Source: Jannaschia pohangensis (lineage in GTDB: Bacteria > Pseudomonadota > Alphaproteobacteria > Rhodobacterales > Rhodobacteraceae). From it: a DNA stretch of 64,000 nt. Positions 2,540-55,549 of the stretch are shown here, piece after piece; within the stretch, counting starts at the first letter, position 1, and each line of letters opens with the position of its first letter. Position numbers and translations under genes: made by a program. Below the pieces are notes generated by a model. That model was given only the letters and a program-made list of their open reading frames with translations, searched no databases and was not told the DNA's origin. The DNA lies in contig NZ_FORA01000006.1 of NCBI RefSeq assembly GCF_900113875.1, positions 1 to 64,000 of the forward strand, in the 5' to 3' direction.

Positions 2540-5500
2540 ATGGGAAACAGGGCAATGAAACTGGCAACCGCAGTCTCCGTGATCGCGCTGATGGCGGGAC
2601 AGGCCGGGGCGCAGGGTTTCGCGCTGACGCTGAACGGCGATACCGTGACGGGGTCGGCCGACGTGGCCGCCGAAGTGGCGCGCGTCGACCGGCAATTGCA
2701 GCAAGCTGACGTCCGCGTCCAATACAGCGGCCTTGCCCCCGAGGCGCGGCTGACCGTCGAGGTGACCGAGGTCGCGAACGGGCGCGTCCGGGTGCAGACG
2801 GCGTCGAACTTCCCCGCCTTCATCGTGCGCGGTGAATTGCGGCTGGTCGACCGGGCCGCGACGGCGGGGCCGCGCGTTGTCTCGCGGCAGGCCCTTGGCC
2901 CCAATGGCGCGGCCGATGTGATCCTGCCTTCGGGCGTGGCAGTCGAGGATCTGGTGCTGGTCTATCGCGTCTATGACGCGCAGGGCCGCTGGAACGAAAC
3001 CGAGGAGGTGGCGCTGGCCGTGCTCGGTGACACCGTTGCGGGCGTGGAACGCGGCAGCGACATTACCGCCCGGCGGGGCATTCCCATCCGGGGCGGCGCG
3101 GTGCGGGTCAGCGGGTCTTCCGTGGCCCCCGGGGCCGTGATCGAGACCATGGGCGAGGCGATCCTGCCCGATCCGTCCGGCGATTTCGTTGTCGAGCGTA
3201 TCCTGCCGCCGGGGAGCCATCCGGTGCGGGTTGCGGTGAATGGGGCCGGTGCGGCACCGCTCGACATCACGCGCGACGTTGACATTCCGACGCGCGAATT
3301 CTTTGGCGTGGGCACCGCTGATCTGACCTTCGGTCTGGGCACCGGAGCCGACGGGGCCAGCGACAATCGCGGCCGACTTGCCTTCTTCATCGAGGGGCGG
3401 ACCGCTGGCGGGGTCGAGATCACCGCATCCGCCGATACCGGCGAGGAAGATCTGGACGACCTGTTCAAGGCACTGGAAGAGCGCGACCCGCGCGAGGTGC
3501 TGCAACGCATCGACCCGCGCGACCTGTTCCCGACCTATGGCGACGACAGCACCCTGGAGGATCGCACGCCGTCTTCGGGCCGCCTGTTCCTGCGGGTCGA
3601 GAAGGACCGCAACTATCTGCAATGGGGCGATTTCGCCGGCAACATCGGGAACAATTCCCTGGTGCGCAACGAACGCCAGCTCTATGGCCTCCAGGTCTAT
3701 GGCGAGACGCCCGCGACCACATCGCGCGGGTTGCCCCGGGCCAGCGTGTCGGCTTATGCCGCCTCGCCCGACCGGCTGCCGCAACGCGACCTGTTCCAGG
3801 GCACCGGTGGGTCGGTCTATTTCCTGCGCCAGCAGGATGTGGCCGTCGGCACCGAAATCCTGACCGTGCAACTGCGCGACCCCGACACCGGCCGCGTGAT
3901 CGAGACGCGCAGGCTTGAGCCCGGACAGGATTACCGCATCAACCACGCGCAGGGCATCGTGACGCTGGATCGTCCGCTGTCGGCGCGGGTCGAAGAGGGC
4001 CTGCTGGGCCTGACCGGCATTTCGCGCCCGCTGGATGTCGTGCTGGCGGTGCAATACGAATACACGCCGAACGCCTTTGCCGTCACCGGCGAGACGGGTG
4101 GCGCGCGGGTCGAGGCCTGGGTGACCGACGACCTGCGCTTTGGTGTGGCGGGCATCAAGGAACGGACCGGCGGGGCGGATCAGACGCTGACCGGGGCGGA
4201 TCTGCTCTGGGTGATCGGCGAGGACAGTTTCCTGAGCCTTGAAGTCGCCGAAAGCGACGGCCCCGGCTTTGGCGAGGCCTTTTCGCCCGATGGCGGTCTG
4301 GCCTTCGAGACGGACGCGGCTCCGGCCGGATCGGGCAGTGCCTACAAGGCGGAGTTCCAGCTCGATTTCCGCGATGCGGGTCTGGCCTTCGACGGTGCGC
4401 TGACCGCCTATGCCGAGCGGCGCGAAGAGGGGTTCAACAGCCTCGATTTCCGCACGACGGCGGCCACCGGGGACGAGCGTCTCTGGGGTGTGGCGACCGA
4501 GGTGACCCCGCGCGACGGGCTGACCTTCGCGCTGACCTATGACGACTATGAAAACGATGTGGGCGAGGCCGACCGCGAAGGTTCGGTCGAGGCTGTGATC
4601 GACCTGACAGAACGCTTCCGCCTTGGCCTGGGTCTCTATCACGAGGAACGCCGGGGCGGCGCGCGCCCGACCGGGACGCGCACCAATGCGGCGGCGCGGC
4701 TGACCTATGCCGCGACCGAGGATTTCTCGATCAGCGTATTCGGCCAGGGCACCCTGAGCGAAAGCGGTCTGGGCAGCGACGACAGACTTGGCGCGGGCTT
4801 CGAGTGGAGCTTTGCCGAGGGTTGGGCGCTTGGCGTGGAAGCGAGCGACGGAAGCCTTGGACCGGCGGCGGATGTGCTGCTGTCCTACGGCGACGAGGCC
4901 GGCAATACCCGCTATCTGGGCTGGGTTCTTGACCCCGAGCGCACTGTCGCGGGCACCACCCTGCGCGGCAGCGACAAAGGTCGGATCGTGACCGGCGGAC
5001 GGCAGCGGATCAACGACCGCGTTACCGTCTTCGGCGAAAACATCTATGACGTCTTCGGTGACTATCGCACGCTGACGCAGGCCTACGGCGTCGATTATGC
5101 GCCCCACGCCGACCTGTCGACGACGCTCGCCTTCGAGATCGGGCGGATCGACGACCGTCCGGGTACCGACCTGGAACGGCGCGCGGTCAGTCTGGGCGCG
5201 ACCCTGGACCGGGAGTTCTGGCAAGCCTCGGGACGGCTGGAATTCCGCGACGAGGAGGGCCTGCGCGCGGGCACGGTCTTTGCCAGCGAAACCATCATCG
5301 CCACGGCCAACGTCGCCTGGGAGATCGACGCCTCGCAGCGCCTCGTCTTCTCGCTCGACTATGCCGACGTGAGCACGGATTCCTCGACCATCATTTCGGG
5401 CGACTATACCGACGTGGTGCTGGGCTATGCCTATCGTCCGGTCACCAACGACCGCTTGAACGTACTGGCGCGCTACCGCTTCCTCGATGACGGCGTGGGC

Positions 5501-49921: not shown

Positions 49922-50911
49922 TCAGAAGCGCAACTGTCCCGCGTTTGCCCGCCCGATCCGGTCGGTTGCCGCCACCAGCCGGTCGGCGATACCGGGCTCG
50001 GACAGGGCATGGCCCGCGAAGGGCGCGATCTCCAGCTTGGCGTCGGACCAGCCCTGCGCCAGCAGATGTGCCGATAGCGGTGGACAGATCATGTCGAACC
50101 GCCCCTGCACGATGACACCGGAAATGCCCTTGAGACGATCCAGGTTGTCCCGGATCCAGCCATCATGATCGAGCCAGCCCTTGTGGGTGAAATAATGGTT
50201 TTCGAGGCGGGCGAAGGCGCGGGCATACTCGCCCCCCGGTTCTCCCGAATGGCCCTGCGACCCGACCGACGCCAGCGCGTTTTCCCAGGCCGCCCAGGCC
50301 CGCGCGAAACGGATCTGGTCGTGTGGCGGTGTGTCGAACATCCGGCGGTTGTAGGCCGCGATCAGGTCTTGACGCTCGTCCTCCGGAATCATCCCGGTGA
50401 AGCGTGCCCATTGGTCGGGCCAGAAGGCCCCCGCGCCGCCCCCATAGAACCAGTCGAGTTCGCGATCTTCCATCAGGAAGACGCCCCGAAGGATCAGGCT
50501 GGCCGCCCGGTCCGGATGCGTGATGCCGTAGATCAGGCCAAGCGTCGCGCCCCAGCTTCCGCCGAAGACGGCCCAGCGGTCGATTTCCAACGTCTCGCGG
50601 ATCAGTTCAATGTCGCGCACCAGATGCCAGGTCGTGTTGTTCTGCACGCTGGCATGGGGCCGCGACCGTCCGCATCCGCGTTGGTCGAACAGGATTACGC
50701 GCCAGATGGACGGGTCGAAGAAGCGCCGCATCATCGGGCTGCATCCGCCGCCGGGGCCGCCGTGCAGCACCACCACGGGCAAACCGTCGGGGTTGCCGCA
50801 TTGCTCCACATAGATGTGATGCCCGTCGCCGACATCGAGCGTTCGCTGGTCGAACGGGTCGATGGGCGGGTAGAGCGCGTTGGCGCTGGTCTGATGCGGA
50901 CTCCGATCCAT
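49922..50911 (-). CDS. pip: Proline iminopeptidase
   Basis: 329 residues. Alpha/beta-hydrolase of the S33 family, releasing N-terminal proline. [17 protein letters not shown] forms the oxyanion/proline-site signature, [12 protein letters not shown] follows, and the catalytic Ser is in [10 protein letters not shown]. The Asp (FDMI) and His (FAGHAL) complete the triad. Divergent from ubiG over 61 bases. Confidence 0.93.
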
Positions 50912-50972
50912 TTCGCCCTATATAGACTGTCGCTGCCCGGCCACCACCGGCAAACATACGAAAGAGGATGAC

Positions 50973-51713
50973 ATGACGACGACCATCGACGACGCCGAAA
51001 TCGCCAAGTTCCAGGCCATGGCCGCCGAGTGGTGGGATCCGAACGGCAAGTTCAAGCCGCTGCACATGCTCAACCCCTGCCGTCTGGACTATATCACCAC
51101 GCAGATCGCGGGGGAGTTCGATCGCGACCTGACGTCCGAGACCCCCTTCGCCGGGCTGCGCATCCTCGACATCGGTTGCGGTGGCGGGCTTCTGTCGGAA
51201 CCGATGGCGCGTTTGGGGGCGACGGTCGTGGGTGTCGATGCCGCCGGGCGCAACATCCCGGTCGCACAAGCCCATGCCGAACAATCCGGCCTGACGATCG
51301 ACTATCGCCATACCTCCGCCGAGGCGCTGGTCGAGGCGGGTGAGCCGCCCTTCGATGTCGTCCTGAACATGGAGGTGGTGGAGCATGTGTCCGACCCGCT
51401 GGCCTATCTGACCGCCTGTCAGCAGCTTTTGCGCCCGGGCGGCCTGATGATCTGCTCGACCCTGAACCGTAATCCGAAAAGCTATGTCATGGCGATCATC
51501 GGGGCGGAGCATGTCATGCGCTGGTTGCCCAAGGGCACCCATGAATGGTCGAAGTTCATCACCCCCGACGAATTGTTCGACCTGATCCGCAAGGCGGGGC
51601 TGACGCCGGTCGACCGCATGGGGTTCGTGTTCAATCCATTGGGGTGGAGCTGGCGCCTGTCCGAACGCGACCTGTCGGTCAACTACGTGACGGCAAGCAC
51701 CAAACCGGCCTGA
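50973..51713 (+). CDS. ubiG: Ubiquinone biosynthesis O-methyltransferase
   Basis: 246 residues from ATG 50973, after AAAGAGGA. UbiG does both O-methylations of ubiquinone synthesis using S-adenosylmethionine. N-terminal [27 protein letters not shown] and the SAM site [25 protein letters not shown], then [10 protein letters not shown]. It stops 5 bases from the convergent tetR stop. Confidence 0.95.
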
Positions 51714-51717
51714 TCGG

Positions 51718-52332
51718 TCAGACGCCGTAGCGGGCCATGAAGGTCTCGACCGCGCCGTCGATGACGCGCTTGCGCTCGGCTGCGGTCGTGGTCTTGCGGA
51801 TCCCGAATACCATCTCGGGGAACAGGTTCGCCTTGCAGAGTTCGGCGAACTGGTCCGCCGCCAGTTCCAGATCGTCGATGGCCAACTCACCGTCGGCGAC
51901 GGCGCAGCGCATGTATTCGACCATCCGTTCGCGAAACAGCTTGGGCCCGGTTTCATAGAATTCGCGGCCCAGTTCCGGGAAACGGTCGGATTCGGCGACG
52001 CACATGCGAAAGATCGACTGGCCGAAATCGGACAGGAAGAACCCCAACATCCGTTCGGCGGCCACGCATAGCACTTCGCGCGGATCGCTGTCGTCGCTCA
52101 GGATGGCATCGGCCTCCTCGATCTGGAGGCCGCATTCGCATTTGGCGACTTCCATGAACAACAGGCGTTTGTCGGGGAAATAGCTGTATAGCGTTGCCTT
52201 CGACACACCGGCGGCACGTGCGATGTTGTCGACGCTCGCCCCTTCATAGCCGTCGGCCATGAACACCGCCCGCGCGCCTTCGAGCACCTGGTCGAACTTG
52301 CGGCCCCGTTTGATCGGCGAGACGTCATTCAT
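51718..52332 (-). CDS. TetR-family transcriptional regulator
   Basis: 204 residues from ATG 52332; the longer frame to 52395 has no ribosome site, and a TATAAT lies 25 bases upstream of this ATG. The N-terminal helix-turn-helix is SVDNIARAAGVSKATLYSYFPDKRLLF, standard for the family. The C-terminal ligand domain has a Cys in AKCECGLQ near residue 60. Its most likely targets are the operator pair upstream of the small-protein gene at 52.7 kb, since TetR operators often lie close to the regulator. The ligand is unknown. Confidence 0.85.
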   Translation of the reverse strand: MNDVSPIKRGRKFDQVLEGARAVFMADGYEGASVDNIARAAGVSKATLYSYFPDKRLLFMEVAKCECGLQIEEADAILSDDSDPREVLCVAAERMLGFFLSDFGQSIFRMCVAESDRFPELGREFYETGPKLFRERMVEYMRCAVADGELAIDDLELAADQFAELCKANLFPEMVFGIRKTTTAAERKRVIDGAVETFMARYGV

Positions 52333-52356
52333 GTTGTGAACCCCATTTGCGCTGAA

Positions 52357-52362
52357 ATTATA
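52357..52362 (-). promoter_or_regulatory. -10 element of tetR
   Basis: TATAAT on the minus strand, 24 bases before the tetR start codon. It is an exact consensus in otherwise GC-rich DNA. The -35 is not clear: a TTGTGC lies 15 bases upstream. Confidence 0.5.
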
Positions 52363-52393
52363 GACGAAGCAGCCGTCGCACAAGGCGAACGGC

Positions 52394-52425
52394 AAACGGG
52401 GCCGCCTGCAGATGCAAGCGACCCC
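52394..52425 (-). terminator. Terminator after the 53-residue gene
   Basis: Minus-strand GGGGTCGC/GCGGCCCC (8 bp with one G-U pair) followed by GTTT, with a smaller GGGCGT/ACGCCC hairpin (52434-52449) just before it. It separates the small gene from tetR. Confidence 0.55.
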
Positions 52426-52449
52426 GCGTCATCGGGCGTTCAGACGCCC

Positions 52450-52611
52450 TTATCGACCGCGATTCGACCGGATGATGGTCGTGACTTGCGATCCGGAATC
52501 GTCGTTGGGGAAGGTCAGATGCGGAAGCGTGACGCCACCGCCCGACCGGGCGCTCGCGGGTCCGGAAGCGAGAAGAGTGACGGCAGTCAGCAGGGCAATG
52601 ATCGGTTTCAT
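52450..52611 (-). CDS. Small secreted peptide, 53 residues
   Basis: Too short for usual gene finders. ATG 52611 is preceded by AAGGA at a 7-base spacing. The product begins with an evident signal peptide (MKPIIALLTAVTLLASG then PASA as the cleavage site), leaving a mature peptide of about 31 residues, RSGGGVTLPHLTFPNDD followed by SGSQVTTIIRSNRGR. It is glycine-, serine- and threonine-rich with a basic end and no cysteine. A terminator lies on both sides. It resembles nothing I recognise. Translation is supported by the ribosome site, the signal peptide and its place in a cluster of similarly small secreted-protein genes. Confidence 0.6.
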   Translation of the reverse strand: MKPIIALLTAVTLLASGPASARSGGGVTLPHLTFPNDDSGSQVTTIIRSNRGR

Positions 52612-52632
52612 GTCGTATCCTTGGGTTGAGGG

Positions 52633-52673
52633 AAAAGGGGTCGGGCGGGACCCCGGGGAAGACCCCGCCCGAC
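52633..52673 (-). terminator. Rho-independent terminator after the IDDDxW gene at 52.7 kb
   Basis: Perfect 10-bp stem GTCGGGCGGG/CCCGCCCGAC; on the minus strand it is followed by CCCCTTTT. A second 7-bp hairpin (TGCCCCC/GGGGGCA, 52675-52696) precedes it. Confidence 0.8.
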
Positions 52674-52703
52674 ATGCCCCCGGGGGAGAGGGGGCAATCG
52701 GTG

Positions 52704-53015
52704 TCAGTCGTTCGCGAGGATCTGGATCACCTCGGCGCGTGACAACGTTCCGCAGTCGGCACCACTCAGTCCGGCCGAAGACTCGAGGCCGGAACAGTCT
52801 CCGGGAATGCCGCCCGCATCCCGTTGGGACGCGGTTTCGGGCGCATCGATCAGACGCCAGTAGTCGTCTTCGATCTCGATGGCGGGACCAGAGGGGCGGT
52901 CATCGGCCATGAACCAGCGGTCGTCGTCGATGACCATGCGATCGGCTGCCGCGGGCAGGGCCGAGAGGGCGATCAGCGATGCAACCAGGCTGGTGCTCAG
53001 AAGTGTCTTCGTCAT
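52704..53015 (-). CDS. Small secreted IDDDxW-repeat protein, copy 1
   Basis: 103 residues, ATG 53015 with AAGGAG upstream. Signal peptide ends ALPAAA. The mature part has two aromatic-acidic repeats, IDDDRW (29-34) and IEDDYW (48-53), then a C-terminal block with PGDC (Cys74), SAGLSG and CG (Cys88), ending in SRAEVIQIL. The two cysteines probably form a disulfide. The same layout, at the same length of 103 residues, occurs in the neighbour at 53.3 kb. The family is not one I recognise. Its promoter is flanked by twin operator-like repeats, so regulation by the nearby TetR protein is likely. Confidence 0.75.
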   Translation of the reverse strand: MTKTLLSTSLVASLIALSALPAAADRMVIDDDRWFMADDRPSGPAIEIEDDYWRLIDAPETASQRDAGGIPGDCSGLESSAGLSGADCGTLSRAEVIQILAND

Positions 53016-53032
53016 TGCGGCGCTCCTTAAAT

Positions 53033-53048
53033 TGAACCGAACAGTTTA
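53033..53048. promoter_or_regulatory. Operator-like repeat O1
   Basis: TGAACCGAACAGTTTA, near-perfect TGAAC-N6-GTTCA dyad (one mismatch). It sits just downstream of the predicted transcription start of the IDDDxW gene, where binding would block RNA polymerase. Confidence 0.6.
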
Positions 53049-53060
53049 GTTCGTAATTCA

Positions 53061-53089
53061 GACCTAGAGGCCGATACAGGGACGGTCAA
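53061..53089 (-). promoter_or_regulatory. Predicted promoter of IDDDxW copy 1
   Basis: On the minus strand TTGACC (53084-53089) and TAGGTC (53061-53066) are spaced by 17 bases, between the two operator repeats. The -35 is one base off consensus; the -10 is weak, as expected for a regulated promoter. Confidence 0.5.
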
Positions 53090-53097
53090 GATAAAAC

Positions 53098-53113
53098 TGA
53101 ACCGAACAGTTCA
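53098..53113. promoter_or_regulatory. Operator-like repeat O2
   Basis: TGAACCGAACAGTTCA, a perfect TGAAC-N6-GTTCA dyad, also containing AACTG-N7-CAGTT. It lies 65 bases from O1 (about six helical turns) and directly upstream of the -35 element. Such sites are typical for TetR dimers; the binder is inferred to be the TetR at 51.7-52.3 kb. Confidence 0.65.
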
Positions 53114-53138
53114 CTTTTTTGCAGAGGGCGATCTTCCC

Positions 53139-53176
53139 AAAAGCGGGACGTGACCGGCTTGGTCCGATCACGTCCC
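53139..53176 (-). terminator. Rho-independent terminator after IDDDxW copy 2
   Basis: Perfect 9-bp stem GGGACGTGA/TCACGTCCC; on the minus strand followed by GCTTTT. A further hairpin (CGGACGGG/CCCGTCCG, 53186-53216) lies between it and the stop. Confidence 0.75.
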
Positions 53177-53268
53177 GGAGGTGCGCGGACGGGCCAACTC
53201 GCCACCAACCCGTCCGCCCCTTCGCCCGGCCGCTAGGGGGACGGCCCGGCGAAACTCGTCATGTCACG

Positions 53269-53580
53269 TCAGCCGTCGAGCATCCGGATCAACTCGCCCC
53301 GGGTCATCTGGCCGCAGGCCTCTCCGGCCAGCCCGGCAGAGGTTTCCAGCGCGGTGCAATCGCCCGGCGTTCCGACACGTTCGTTCAGGCCCTGGACTTC
53401 GGACTTGTCGTCCAGCGACCAGCCATCGTCATCGATGCTCACCGGCGCGCCTGAGGATTCCGACGGTGAATTCAGCGACCATCCGTCGTCATCGATCTTC
53501 ATCGTCTGGGCCATCGCGGGCGCCGTCAGCGCCAGAAACAGGCCCGTGGTCAAGGTTGCGGCAGTCTTGAAGGGTGTCAT
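53269..53580 (-). CDS. Small secreted IDDDxW-repeat protein, copy 2
   Basis: 103 residues from ATG 53580, which follows AAGGAG at 7 bases; the frame to 53625 is rejected. Signal peptide ends APAMA. Repeats IDDDGW (29-34) and IDDDGW (49-54); C-terminal PGDC (Cys75), SAGLAG and ACG (Cys89), ending TRGELIRML. About 30-40% of mature positions match copy 1, and the two have equal length, so this is a tandem duplication. It lacks the operator repeat of copy 1, so the two are probably regulated differently. Divergent from mbfA over 149 bases. Confidence 0.75.
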   Translation of the reverse strand: MTPFKTAATLTTGLFLALTAPAMAQTMKIDDDGWSLNSPSESSGAPVSIDDDGWSLDDKSEVQGLNERVGTPGDCTALETSAGLAGEACGQMTRGELIRMLDG

Positions 53581-53729
53581 GCACATCTCCTTTTCGACAC
53601 ATCGCAGGCATTCCGTCCTGCCCACCTGATCTGGGGGCGCGGGTGGCCGGGGACAATTCGCGGATATTCGCCGTCGGCCAAGACCTGCCCGCGCTTGCGC
53701 AGGATCGCGCGCAGGCGCAACATCGGGTC

Positions 53730-54707
53730 ATGTTCTACGGATTCTCGAACCGCCGCCGCTTTGCCGACCTTTCGGAGCAGGAGATATTGGCCCTCGCCAT
53801 CTCGGCCGAGGAAGACGATGCCAGCATCTATCGCACCTTTGCCGAACGCCTTCGGACCGACTTTCCAGACAGCGCGACCGTCTTCGACGCCATGGCCGCC
53901 GAGGAAGACAATCACCGCCGCCGCCTGATCGACCTGCACGCCGAACGCTTCGGCAAGGTCATTCCGCTGATCCGGCGCGAGCACGTCGCGGGTTTCTATG
54001 CGCGCAAACCCATCTGGCTGACCGAGAATCTGGGCCTTGACCGGATCCGGGCCGAAGCCTCGGCGATGGAGAACGCGGCGCACCACTTCTATATCAAGGC
54101 CGCGCAGCGCAGCAGCGACCCGGCGACGCGCAAGCTTCTGGGCGATCTGGCCGCGGCCGAGGCAGGGCACGAGGCGCGGGCCGATGCCCTGACCGCCAAG
54201 ACCCTGACCCCCGAAGCGCGCGAGGTCGAGGACGAGCGCGCCCACCGGCAGTTCGTGCTGACTTGGGTGCAGCCGGGTCTGGCCGGCCTGATGGATGGCT
54301 CCGTCTCGACCCTTGCGCCGATCTTCGCCGTCGCCTTTGCCACTCAGGACACCTGGACGACGTTCCTTGTCGGGCTTGCCGCCAGCGTCGGCGCGGGCAT
54401 TTCCATGGGCTTTACCGAAGCCGCCTCCGATGACGGGCAGTTGTCGGGCCGGGGCTCTCCGATCAAGCGGGGCATTGCCGCCGGGGTGATGACGACCATC
54501 GGCGGCCTGGGCCACGCCATGCCCTATCTGATCCCGCAATTCGGGCTGGCCACGGCCATCGCCATCGCCGTCGTCTTCGTGGAGCTTTGGGCGATTGCCT
54601 GGATCCAGAACCGCTACATGGAGACGCCGTTCTGGCGCGCCACCCTTCAGGTCGTGGTGGGCGGCGCGCTGGTCCTTGCGGCGGGCATCCTGATCGGCAC
54701 CGGTTAG
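53730..54707 (+). CDS. mbfA: Membrane-bound ferritin, MbfA-like
   Basis: 325 residues from ATG 53730; no strong ribosome site is seen, and the upstream frame is not family-like. The N-terminal ferritin-like di-iron domain (about 10-170) has EEDDASIY, EEDNHRR, ENAAHHFY and EAGHEAR, giving the ligands Glu/His. The C-terminal half (about 175-325) is a VIT1/CCC1-like transporter with about five helices. MbfA in alphaproteobacteria exports iron and protects against peroxide and iron stress. It is divergent from IDDDxW copy 2 and convergent with the LOG gene, stops sharing four bases. Confidence 0.88.
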   Translation: MFYGFSNRRRFADLSEQEILALAISAEEDDASIYRTFAERLRTDFPDSATVFDAMAAEEDNHRRRLIDLHAERFGKVIPLIRREHVAGFYARKPIWLTENLGLDRIRAEASAMENAAHHFYIKAAQRSSDPATRKLLGDLAAAEAGHEARADALTAKTLTPEAREVEDERAHRQFVLTWVQPGLAGLMDGSVSTLAPIFAVAFATQDTWTTFLVGLAASVGAGISMGFTEAASDDGQLSGRGSPIKRGIAAGVMTTIGGLGHAMPYLIPQFGLATAIAIAVVFVELWAIAWIQNRYMETPFWRATLQVVVGGALVLAAGILIGTG

Positions 54708-55549
54708 CGGTGAAACTCCCGCCGGGTGCGGGGCAGGGGCCAGTTTTCAATCAGCTCGATCGCGTCTTCGGCCGTCTCGACAAAGCGGAACAGCGCCAGG
54801 TCGTCGGCCCCGATGGTTCCCGCTTCCTCCAGCGCGTCCCAATTGACGATGCTGCGCCAGAAGGATTCGCCGAACAGAAGGACCGGCACACGCTCCATCC
54901 GGCCCGTCTGGATCAGGGTCAGCGCCTCGAACAGTTCGTCCAGCGTGCCGAAACCGCCCGGAAAGACGCAGATCGCGCTGGCCCGCATCAGGAAGTGCAT
55001 CTTTCGGATCGCGAAATAATGGAAGTTGAACGACAGCTCGGGGGTGACATATTCATTCGGCGCCTGTTCATGGGGCAGCACGATGTTGAGGCCGATGGAC
55101 CGGCCGCCCGCGTCCGCCGCGCCCCGGTTGCCCGCCTCCATCACGCCGGGGCCACCGCCCGTGACGATGACGTTCCGGCGCCCGCCCGAGGCGGCCATCG
55201 AATGTTCGGTCACCAGTTTGGCGAAGCGGCGCGCCTCGTCGTATTGCTGGCTCAACGCGCGCAGCGTCTCGGTCCGTGCGGTCGCCTTGTCGGCGGGCCG
55301 GGGAATGCGCGCGCCGCCGAACAGGACGACCGTCGATTCCACTTCTGCCTCGTCCATCAGAAGACCGGTCTTCAACAGCTCAAGTTGAAGGCGGACGGGA
55401 CGCAGATCATCGCGGCACAGGAAATCCTCGTCCGCAAATGCCAGCCGATAGGCCGGGCTGCGGGTCTGGGGCGTGTCGGGAACGGTGCGCGCGGTGCGGC
55501 TGTCTTCGCGGGCTTCGCGAAGCGGGTGGGTTCGGTGCTGATCGGTCAT
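54704..55549 (-). CDS. LOG-family protein (lysine decarboxylase-like Rossmann fold)
   Basis: 281 residues from ATG 55549. The conserved PGGFGTLDELFE and GGGPGVMEAGNRGA motifs mark the LOG family, phosphoribohydrolases of which some release cytokinin bases. It has an N-terminal extension of about 70 residues compared with the short LOG forms, as seen in many proteobacterial TIGR00730-type proteins. Stop overlaps mbfA by four bases. Confidence 0.87.
   Translation of the reverse strand: MTDQHRTHPLREAREDSRTARTVPDTPQTRSPAYRLAFADEDFLCRDDLRPVRLQLELLKTGLLMDEAEVESTVVLFGGARIPRPADKATARTETLRALSQQYDEARRFAKLVTEHSMAASGGRRNVIVTGGGPGVMEAGNRGAADAGGRSIGLNIVLPHEQAPNEYVTPELSFNFHYFAIRKMHFLMRASAICVFPGGFGTLDELFEALTLIQTGRMERVPVLLFGESFWRSIVNWDALEEAGTIGADDLALFRFVETAEDAIELIENWPLPRTRREFHR

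Follow-up and report, generated by a model that had tools for sequence, protein, structure and literature searches.

Two adjacent small genes of Jannaschia pohangensis, here called A and B, each encode a protein with a signal-peptide-like N terminus and two I(D/E)DDxW repeats, and they raise the question of what such proteins do for the cell and whether they act as a pair. They lie in a window of 64,000 nucleotides, the whole stretch of DNA analysed, and a sequence-only reading had described them as a simple tandem duplication of a family without a name. In this study, we mainly focus on the genes and palindromes around A and B, along with their distribution in the genus Jannaschia and in Rhodobacteraceae, and we argue that at least one of the two proteins probably adds a new component to the way in which the cell responds to toxic chemicals.

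Organization of the locus

Read along the minus strand, B comes first and is followed by a strong hairpin, two palindromes, A, a second hairpin, C and tetR; the plus strand carries a methyltransferase gene at one end and mbfA at the other:

50973..51713, plus strand: methyltransferase gene (ubiG-like by reading), convergent with tetR; a neighbour kept in 8 of 9 genus loci
51718..52332, minus strand: tetR, encoding a TetR_N + TetR_C_7 (AefR-like) repressor, the presumed regulator
52450..52611, minus strand: gene C, a predicted secreted protein of 53 aa with a VTLPHLTFP motif, from a widespread LPxLTFP small-protein family
52640..52673, minus strand: hairpin between A and C, GC-rich and followed by CCCUUUU; terminator- or attenuator-like
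52704..53015, minus strand: gene A, a predicted secreted protein of 103 aa with two I(D/E)DDxW repeats and a C-terminal CSGLESSAGLSGADCG block
53033..53048, no strand assigned: predicted operator 2 (TGAACCGAACAGTTTA), between the putative A promoter and the ribosome site, 65 bp from operator 1
53098..53113, no strand assigned: predicted operator 1 (TGAACCGAACAGTTCA), upstream of the -35-like TTGACC of A
53144..53177, minus strand: hairpin between B and A, GC-rich with four U shortly after; possible terminator
53269..53580, minus strand: gene B, 103 aa, a diverged paralogue of A with no operator in its upstream region
53730..54707, plus strand: mbfA, a membrane-bound ferritin-type iron exporter (NF045676 above cut-off), divergent from B and a neighbour only

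Both genes of the reported pair are real, each with 103 residues on the minus strand and an ATG behind an AAGGAG-type ribosome site. They do not form an isolated unit, since C and tetR follow A, and a hairpin and the operators of A part B from A; the earlier inventory, right for A and B, had overlooked C, tetR and the operators, and it is these that inform on function. The hairpin between B and A reaches z -3.56 (53125-53190) and is absent from a consensus terminator scan, and the one between A and C reaches z -2.61 (52630-52700) and is among the 3 such elements that the consensus scan found against 1.5 expected. Because hairpins stand between them, A and C may not share one transcript. A sigma-70 promoter scan of 51600-53800 recognised none, so the promoter of A is placed only by TTGACC and by comparison with related loci.

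The TetR protein scores far above the cut-offs of both of its domains (PF14246, 129.7 bits against 22; PF00440, 56.1 against 24), which places it among the AefR-like regulators; in the list of its solved relatives NalC (8ke8, E 6e-19) stands fifth and AefR sixth. A match to this TetR at E 1e-50 was found in 18 of 20 genus genomes, and A homologues lie upstream of tetR in all nine genus loci compared. By profile search, A was not found in 8 of the 18 TetR-bearing genomes, and the regulator therefore does not need A.

Sequence and predicted structure of A and B

A and B align at 39% identity with one gap in each and are paralogues, as first proposed. Both carry the signal-peptide-like N terminus and the two-cysteine C-terminal block (PGDC..LE.SAGL.G..CG...R.E.I..L) ascribed to them. 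The repeats had been placed 20 residues apart, which is right for B (IDDDGW at residues 29 and 49) and off by one for A, where IDDDRW at residue 29 and IEDDYW at 48 are 19 apart. That the family is unnamed was borne out: A and B reached no curated cut-off in Pfam or NCBIfam, with sub-cut-off matches only, and gave nothing in PHROGs at E 0.1; their best match among PDB sequences had E 0.18. The plasmid collection searched with B and Rfam over 50500-55000 gave no match, the string IDDDGW had none in the open-access literature searched, and no title or abstract start there concerned A or C.

An AlphaFold prediction of A with six relatives gave a mean pLDDT of 68.9 and a pTM of 0.35. In this model each I-D/E-D-D-x-W is a turn between two short strands (pLDDT ~66-72), and residues 72-103 (pLDDT ~75-86) contain two short helices near both cysteines, which suggests a protein of two acidic beta-hairpins followed by a compact block at the C terminus. 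Foldseek with the model against PDB returned nothing below E 4; because the model is modest and this search empty, a biochemical role of A has no structural support, and the assignment of any particular activity would be doubtful.

Distribution and descent of the A/B family

The sequence-only reading had proposed a profile search of Rhodobacteraceae genomes with both sequences and had named, as a ground for giving the family up, an absence of homologues outside this strain together with missing peptide evidence. A profile of A and B matched 11 of 20 Jannaschia genomes at E 0.01, of which 10 were retained after exclusion of the match in genome G300 (E 0.005, internal stop) as spurious; homologues outside the strain thus exist, and that ground falls away. 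Architecture varies among these relatives: the J. seohaensis protein has one repeat, that of G295 has three and no C-terminal block, that of G312 has Ile in place of Trp, and one of the 10, in J. helgolandensis, is frame-interrupted. At this last locus (L157, ~2730-3110) the broken homologue still has paired operators in front and a C gene behind. NG86 dN/dS for six A-orthologue pairs was 0.20, 0.24, 0.31, 0.35, 0.38 and 0.72, values that are rough because most of the pairs have a dS close to 1 or higher; the equally rough value for A against B was 0.53. Together with the homologues, these ratios speak for genes that are more than chance reading frames.

The simple tandem duplication with a kept architecture that was first proposed is not supported as put, and the architecture is variable. 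A recent tandem duplication was rejected: A is 65% identical to a J. donghaensis gene and so nearer to it than to B, and no second A/B-type gene was found in any other genus genome among the 20 searched (the tree itself is weak). Because none of these other genomes has two copies and B is without the operators of A, the A/B split looks old by sequence comparison. B is a diverged paralogue, probably outside TetR control. Of 19 rows tried for the TetR tree 16 entered it, as the motif used failed to pick up J. pagri, G309 and G312; in this tree the TetR of the window is one of 8 in a strongly supported group that includes J. helgolandensis, J. seosinensis and J. formosa. The A protein is nearest to those of J. 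donghaensis and G299, that is, to the other TetR clade; a 10-row A tree has no strongly supported fork, and the descent of window A may reflect either transfer or old paralogy.

Outside the genus, 294 other genomes, one per genus, were searched at E 0.01-0.1, and none of the 14 loci read holds an IDDDxW protein; the remaining weak matches were set aside by the profile positions they covered. A family-wide IDDDxW protein was accordingly rejected as a candidate, as the outside-genus matches consist of the C-terminal block or mainly of the signal-peptide end. Four of these genomes (G015, G081, G256, G286) carry the block, CTQLE.SAG....CG.L...E, as a small secreted protein with an operator before it and tetR after it, and block proteins in G024, G170 and G211 have no such tetR within the 6 kb examined. 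At loci L219, L221 and L222, small secreted proteins carry the CTQLE...CG block alone, with this tetR not nearby.

Gene C and the LPxLTFP family

C-type proteins are far more widespread, with matches in 64 of 295 sampled genomes, one per genus (E 0.001), and in 71 of 244 genomes of a further draw at E 1e-4, where all listed matches come from Rhodobacteraceae. Judged by coordinates, 51 of these 64 stand immediately upstream of tetR, 10 lie elsewhere and 3 were unplaced; seven of the 10 stand beside mbfA (L204-L208, L210, L214), with tetR outside the stretch examined. A first C-family HMM matched 49 of 111 regions, against 0 of 111 in an antisense control. Its training set of motif matches came from these very regions (97 of them distinct), so the 49 cannot be taken as an independent rate. 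An 18-row C alignment found nothing convincing in Pfam or NCBIfam (best E 0.012 and 0.0046). The mature tails of C proteins vary strongly, the conserved motif lies in mid-protein and not at the C terminus, and NG86 dN/dS for two C pairs was 0.27 and 0.16. C is probably the core partner of this TetR.

Predicted operators of the TetR-type repressor

The exact palindrome occurs only twice in the genome of J. pohangensis, both times at A. Across the 97 distinct regions of 111, the dyad AACnGnnCnGTT was counted 98 times (overlaps counted apart) in the 800 bases before tetR, whereas in the same 97 regions the reversed pattern occurred once and shuffles gave 0.7 expected. A site lies within 80 bases of tetR in 28 of the 97 regions, mostly between a TTGC and a TATA-like hexamer, suggesting autorepression of tetR in those regions; the window tetR has no such promoter-proximal site. 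Neighbouring sites further upstream are spaced 22-37 or 60-69 bp apart.

Paired sites 57-69 bp apart (score >6) precede 10 of 11 A genes, counted over the 10 genus genomes and J. formosa; they are weak in J. seohaensis and weak on one side in J. donghaensis, and the A gene of G312 has none in front. No operator was found before B, where the best score was -15.2. As the scoring matrix was trained on tetR-upstream sites, a test at RND operons is independent of it and the sites at A are not.

These paired sites bear on the unlikely possibility that A is a secreted protein which drifts fast and is dispensable, with nothing specific to do apart from being co-regulated. Such drift would account for its patchy occurrence (10 of 20 genomes), the variable repeat number, the interrupted copy and the loss of Trp in G312. 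It fits poorly with dN/dS below 0.4 in 5 of 6 A pairs, with the paired operators kept in 10 of 11 cases, and with a C-terminal block that four other genera have retained in that slot.

The RND efflux operon and a proposed wider regulon

In the J. pohangensis genome, another contig carries an RND adaptor-permease operon with a one-mismatch site (score 16.3 of 26.5) 65 bp in front of it, and the products of this operon have RND_mfp and ACR_tran domains; the other one-mismatch sites lie mostly inside or beside genes of no evident relation. Because the RND adaptor gene occurs in 20 of 20 genus genomes but TetR in only 18, the association with TetR is a prediction that could fail. In all 18 TetR genomes the 250 bp that precede the adaptor gene hold a site, at -43 to -76, with scores of 5.6-25.8, whereas the best scores in the two genomes without a TetR match (E 1e-50) are -8.2 and -15.6, that is, no site. 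Three of the RND sites are weak (5.6, 5.9 and 8.5); at the same loci 2 of 78,651 other positions score above 5 (10.8 and 5.9), the former exceeding all three. The split of 18/18 against 0/2 has a chance of 1 in 190 if the genomes are independent, and since they are related its true weight is lower.

An exact-match scan of 295 genomes found sites in 95 of them, against 8 matches in 7 genomes for the reversed pattern. Thirty exact-site loci from other genera were examined: 12 are tetR/mbfA/C loci, 9 have an RND periplasmic adaptor gene beside the site, in 3 the site precedes rpoH and in 1 a TolC-type gene, and 5 hold other or unidentified genes. The rpoH sites (L234, L242 and L256, position ~1500) stand directly upstream of the gene for sigma-32 in three genera, which suggests that this repressor also gates the heat-shock response there.

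Proposed mechanism and competing explanations

We consider it fairly probable that A and C belong to a TetR/RND regulon and have a periplasmic role, as exported effectors in what would be a regulon for efflux and envelope stress. In the mechanism that we propose, a TetR dimer would bind the predicted operator TRAACYGWWCRGTTYA; with one such site on either side of it, the promoter of A, which would also serve C behind A, would stay silent, and a third, weaker site at the RND pump operon in another part of the chromosome would repress that operon. Release of TetR by a toxic and probably hydrophobic compound would lead to joint production of the pump and the small proteins. A and C would then be exported via Sec to the periplasm. 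There A would present two acidic beta-hairpins that bear Trp, along with a helical block with two cysteines, and it may have a protective function or serve as an accessory of the pump.

Enterobacteria offer familiar examples of small envelope proteins that share their regulation with RND efflux genes, namely Spy/CpxP and AcrZ. A has no sequence or fold match to them: no Pfam match to Spy/CpxP and no PDB match was found, its model (of modest quality) is not all-helical, unlike these chaperones, and A is not a membrane peptide. The AefR-like TetR_C_7 regulators are the closer parallel by domain score and by the presence of AefR among the solved relatives, but the predicted targets here include small secreted proteins of no named family. 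In Pseudomonas aeruginosa, the repressor NalC, which stands on that same list, controls a small operon (PA3720-armR) linked to the RND pump MexAB-OprM, with ArmR as an antirepressor, according to PMC3290565. Unlike that system, window A and C carry signal peptides, and the same operator is found on the RND operon itself. By analogy, the Jannaschia system would work like NalC/AcrR-type efflux control with added small envelope proteins, and A, B and C would be new protein families within a known kind of regulon.

Proximity to mbfA raises another, quite unlikely reading, in which the small proteins are periplasmic iron- or calcium-binding partners of MbfA whose DDD clusters hold metal. The gene is divergent from B and adjoins C even where tetR is elsewhere (the seven loci above), the repeats are acidic, with an approximate net charge of -9 to -13 for the mature A/B-type proteins, and some fit the calcium-type loop DxDxDG. 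This loop is not conserved in A, which has DDDRW and EDDYW, window C has no acidic repeats, and the window operators stand at A and not in the gap between B and mbfA. Three relatives (L077, L078, L088) carry, further upstream than the TetR sites of C, a TTAGAATGATTCTAA-like palindrome that we take to be an Irr box. In R. sphaeroides Irr binds the mbfA promoter, as stated in PMC3413700; mbfA would thus have its own control.

It is very unlikely that A and/or C are exported nascent-chain sensors whose export or stalling controls translation of the next gene via intergenic hairpins. The precedent is CutF of Rhodobacter capsulatus, described in PMC9973294: this small protein is exported by Sec, an intergenic stem-loop parts its gene from the next one downstream, and it is marked by CxxxC and a C-terminal proline motif. 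Here, too, small signal-peptide proteins lie directly upstream of another gene, hairpins separate A from C and are present in many gaps between C and tetR (30 folded, without shuffle control), and the LPxLTFP motif contains proline. By reading, however, window A has neither CxxxC nor a C-terminal Pro stretch, C has no CxxxC, and its conserved Pro motif is in mid-protein; C is away from tetR in 10 of 64 genomes, and the RND pump is encoded elsewhere. Often tetR has its own promoter-like stretch, unlike the gene behind CutF, and in 28 of 97 regions an operator overlaps it just before tetR, which means that tetR can be transcribed on its own.

Hardly credible is a peptide signal, in which C or A is secreted, processed, re-imported and bound by TetR as in small-peptide quorum systems: small exported proteins do adjoin a cytoplasmic repressor that probably controls them, but no importer or protease gene is found among A, B, C, tetR and their neighbours, the mature C tails are highly variable, and TetR_C_7 relatives are known as small-molecule sensors.

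Implications for Rhodobacteraceae

Membership of A and C in a TetR/RND regulon turns an anonymous ORF pair into a testable TetR regulon of marine Alphaproteobacteria that would combine an RND pump with unnamed exported proteins, and in other genera it would also take in rpoH and a TolC-type channel. A bolder and rather unlikely extension is that A and C, two unrelated-looking exported micro-protein families in the same slot, are dedicated periplasmic working parts of Rhodobacteraceae RND efflux that capture or hand on toxicants or tune the tripartite pump. We know of no such component class in Enterobacteria, and if the extension is true, dedicated exported micro-proteins would be an efflux component class new relative to that group. 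As C-type proteins occur in 64 of 295 genera, a function found in one would transfer widely, and the short operator motif offers a means to seek the regulon in other Rhodobacteraceae genomes.
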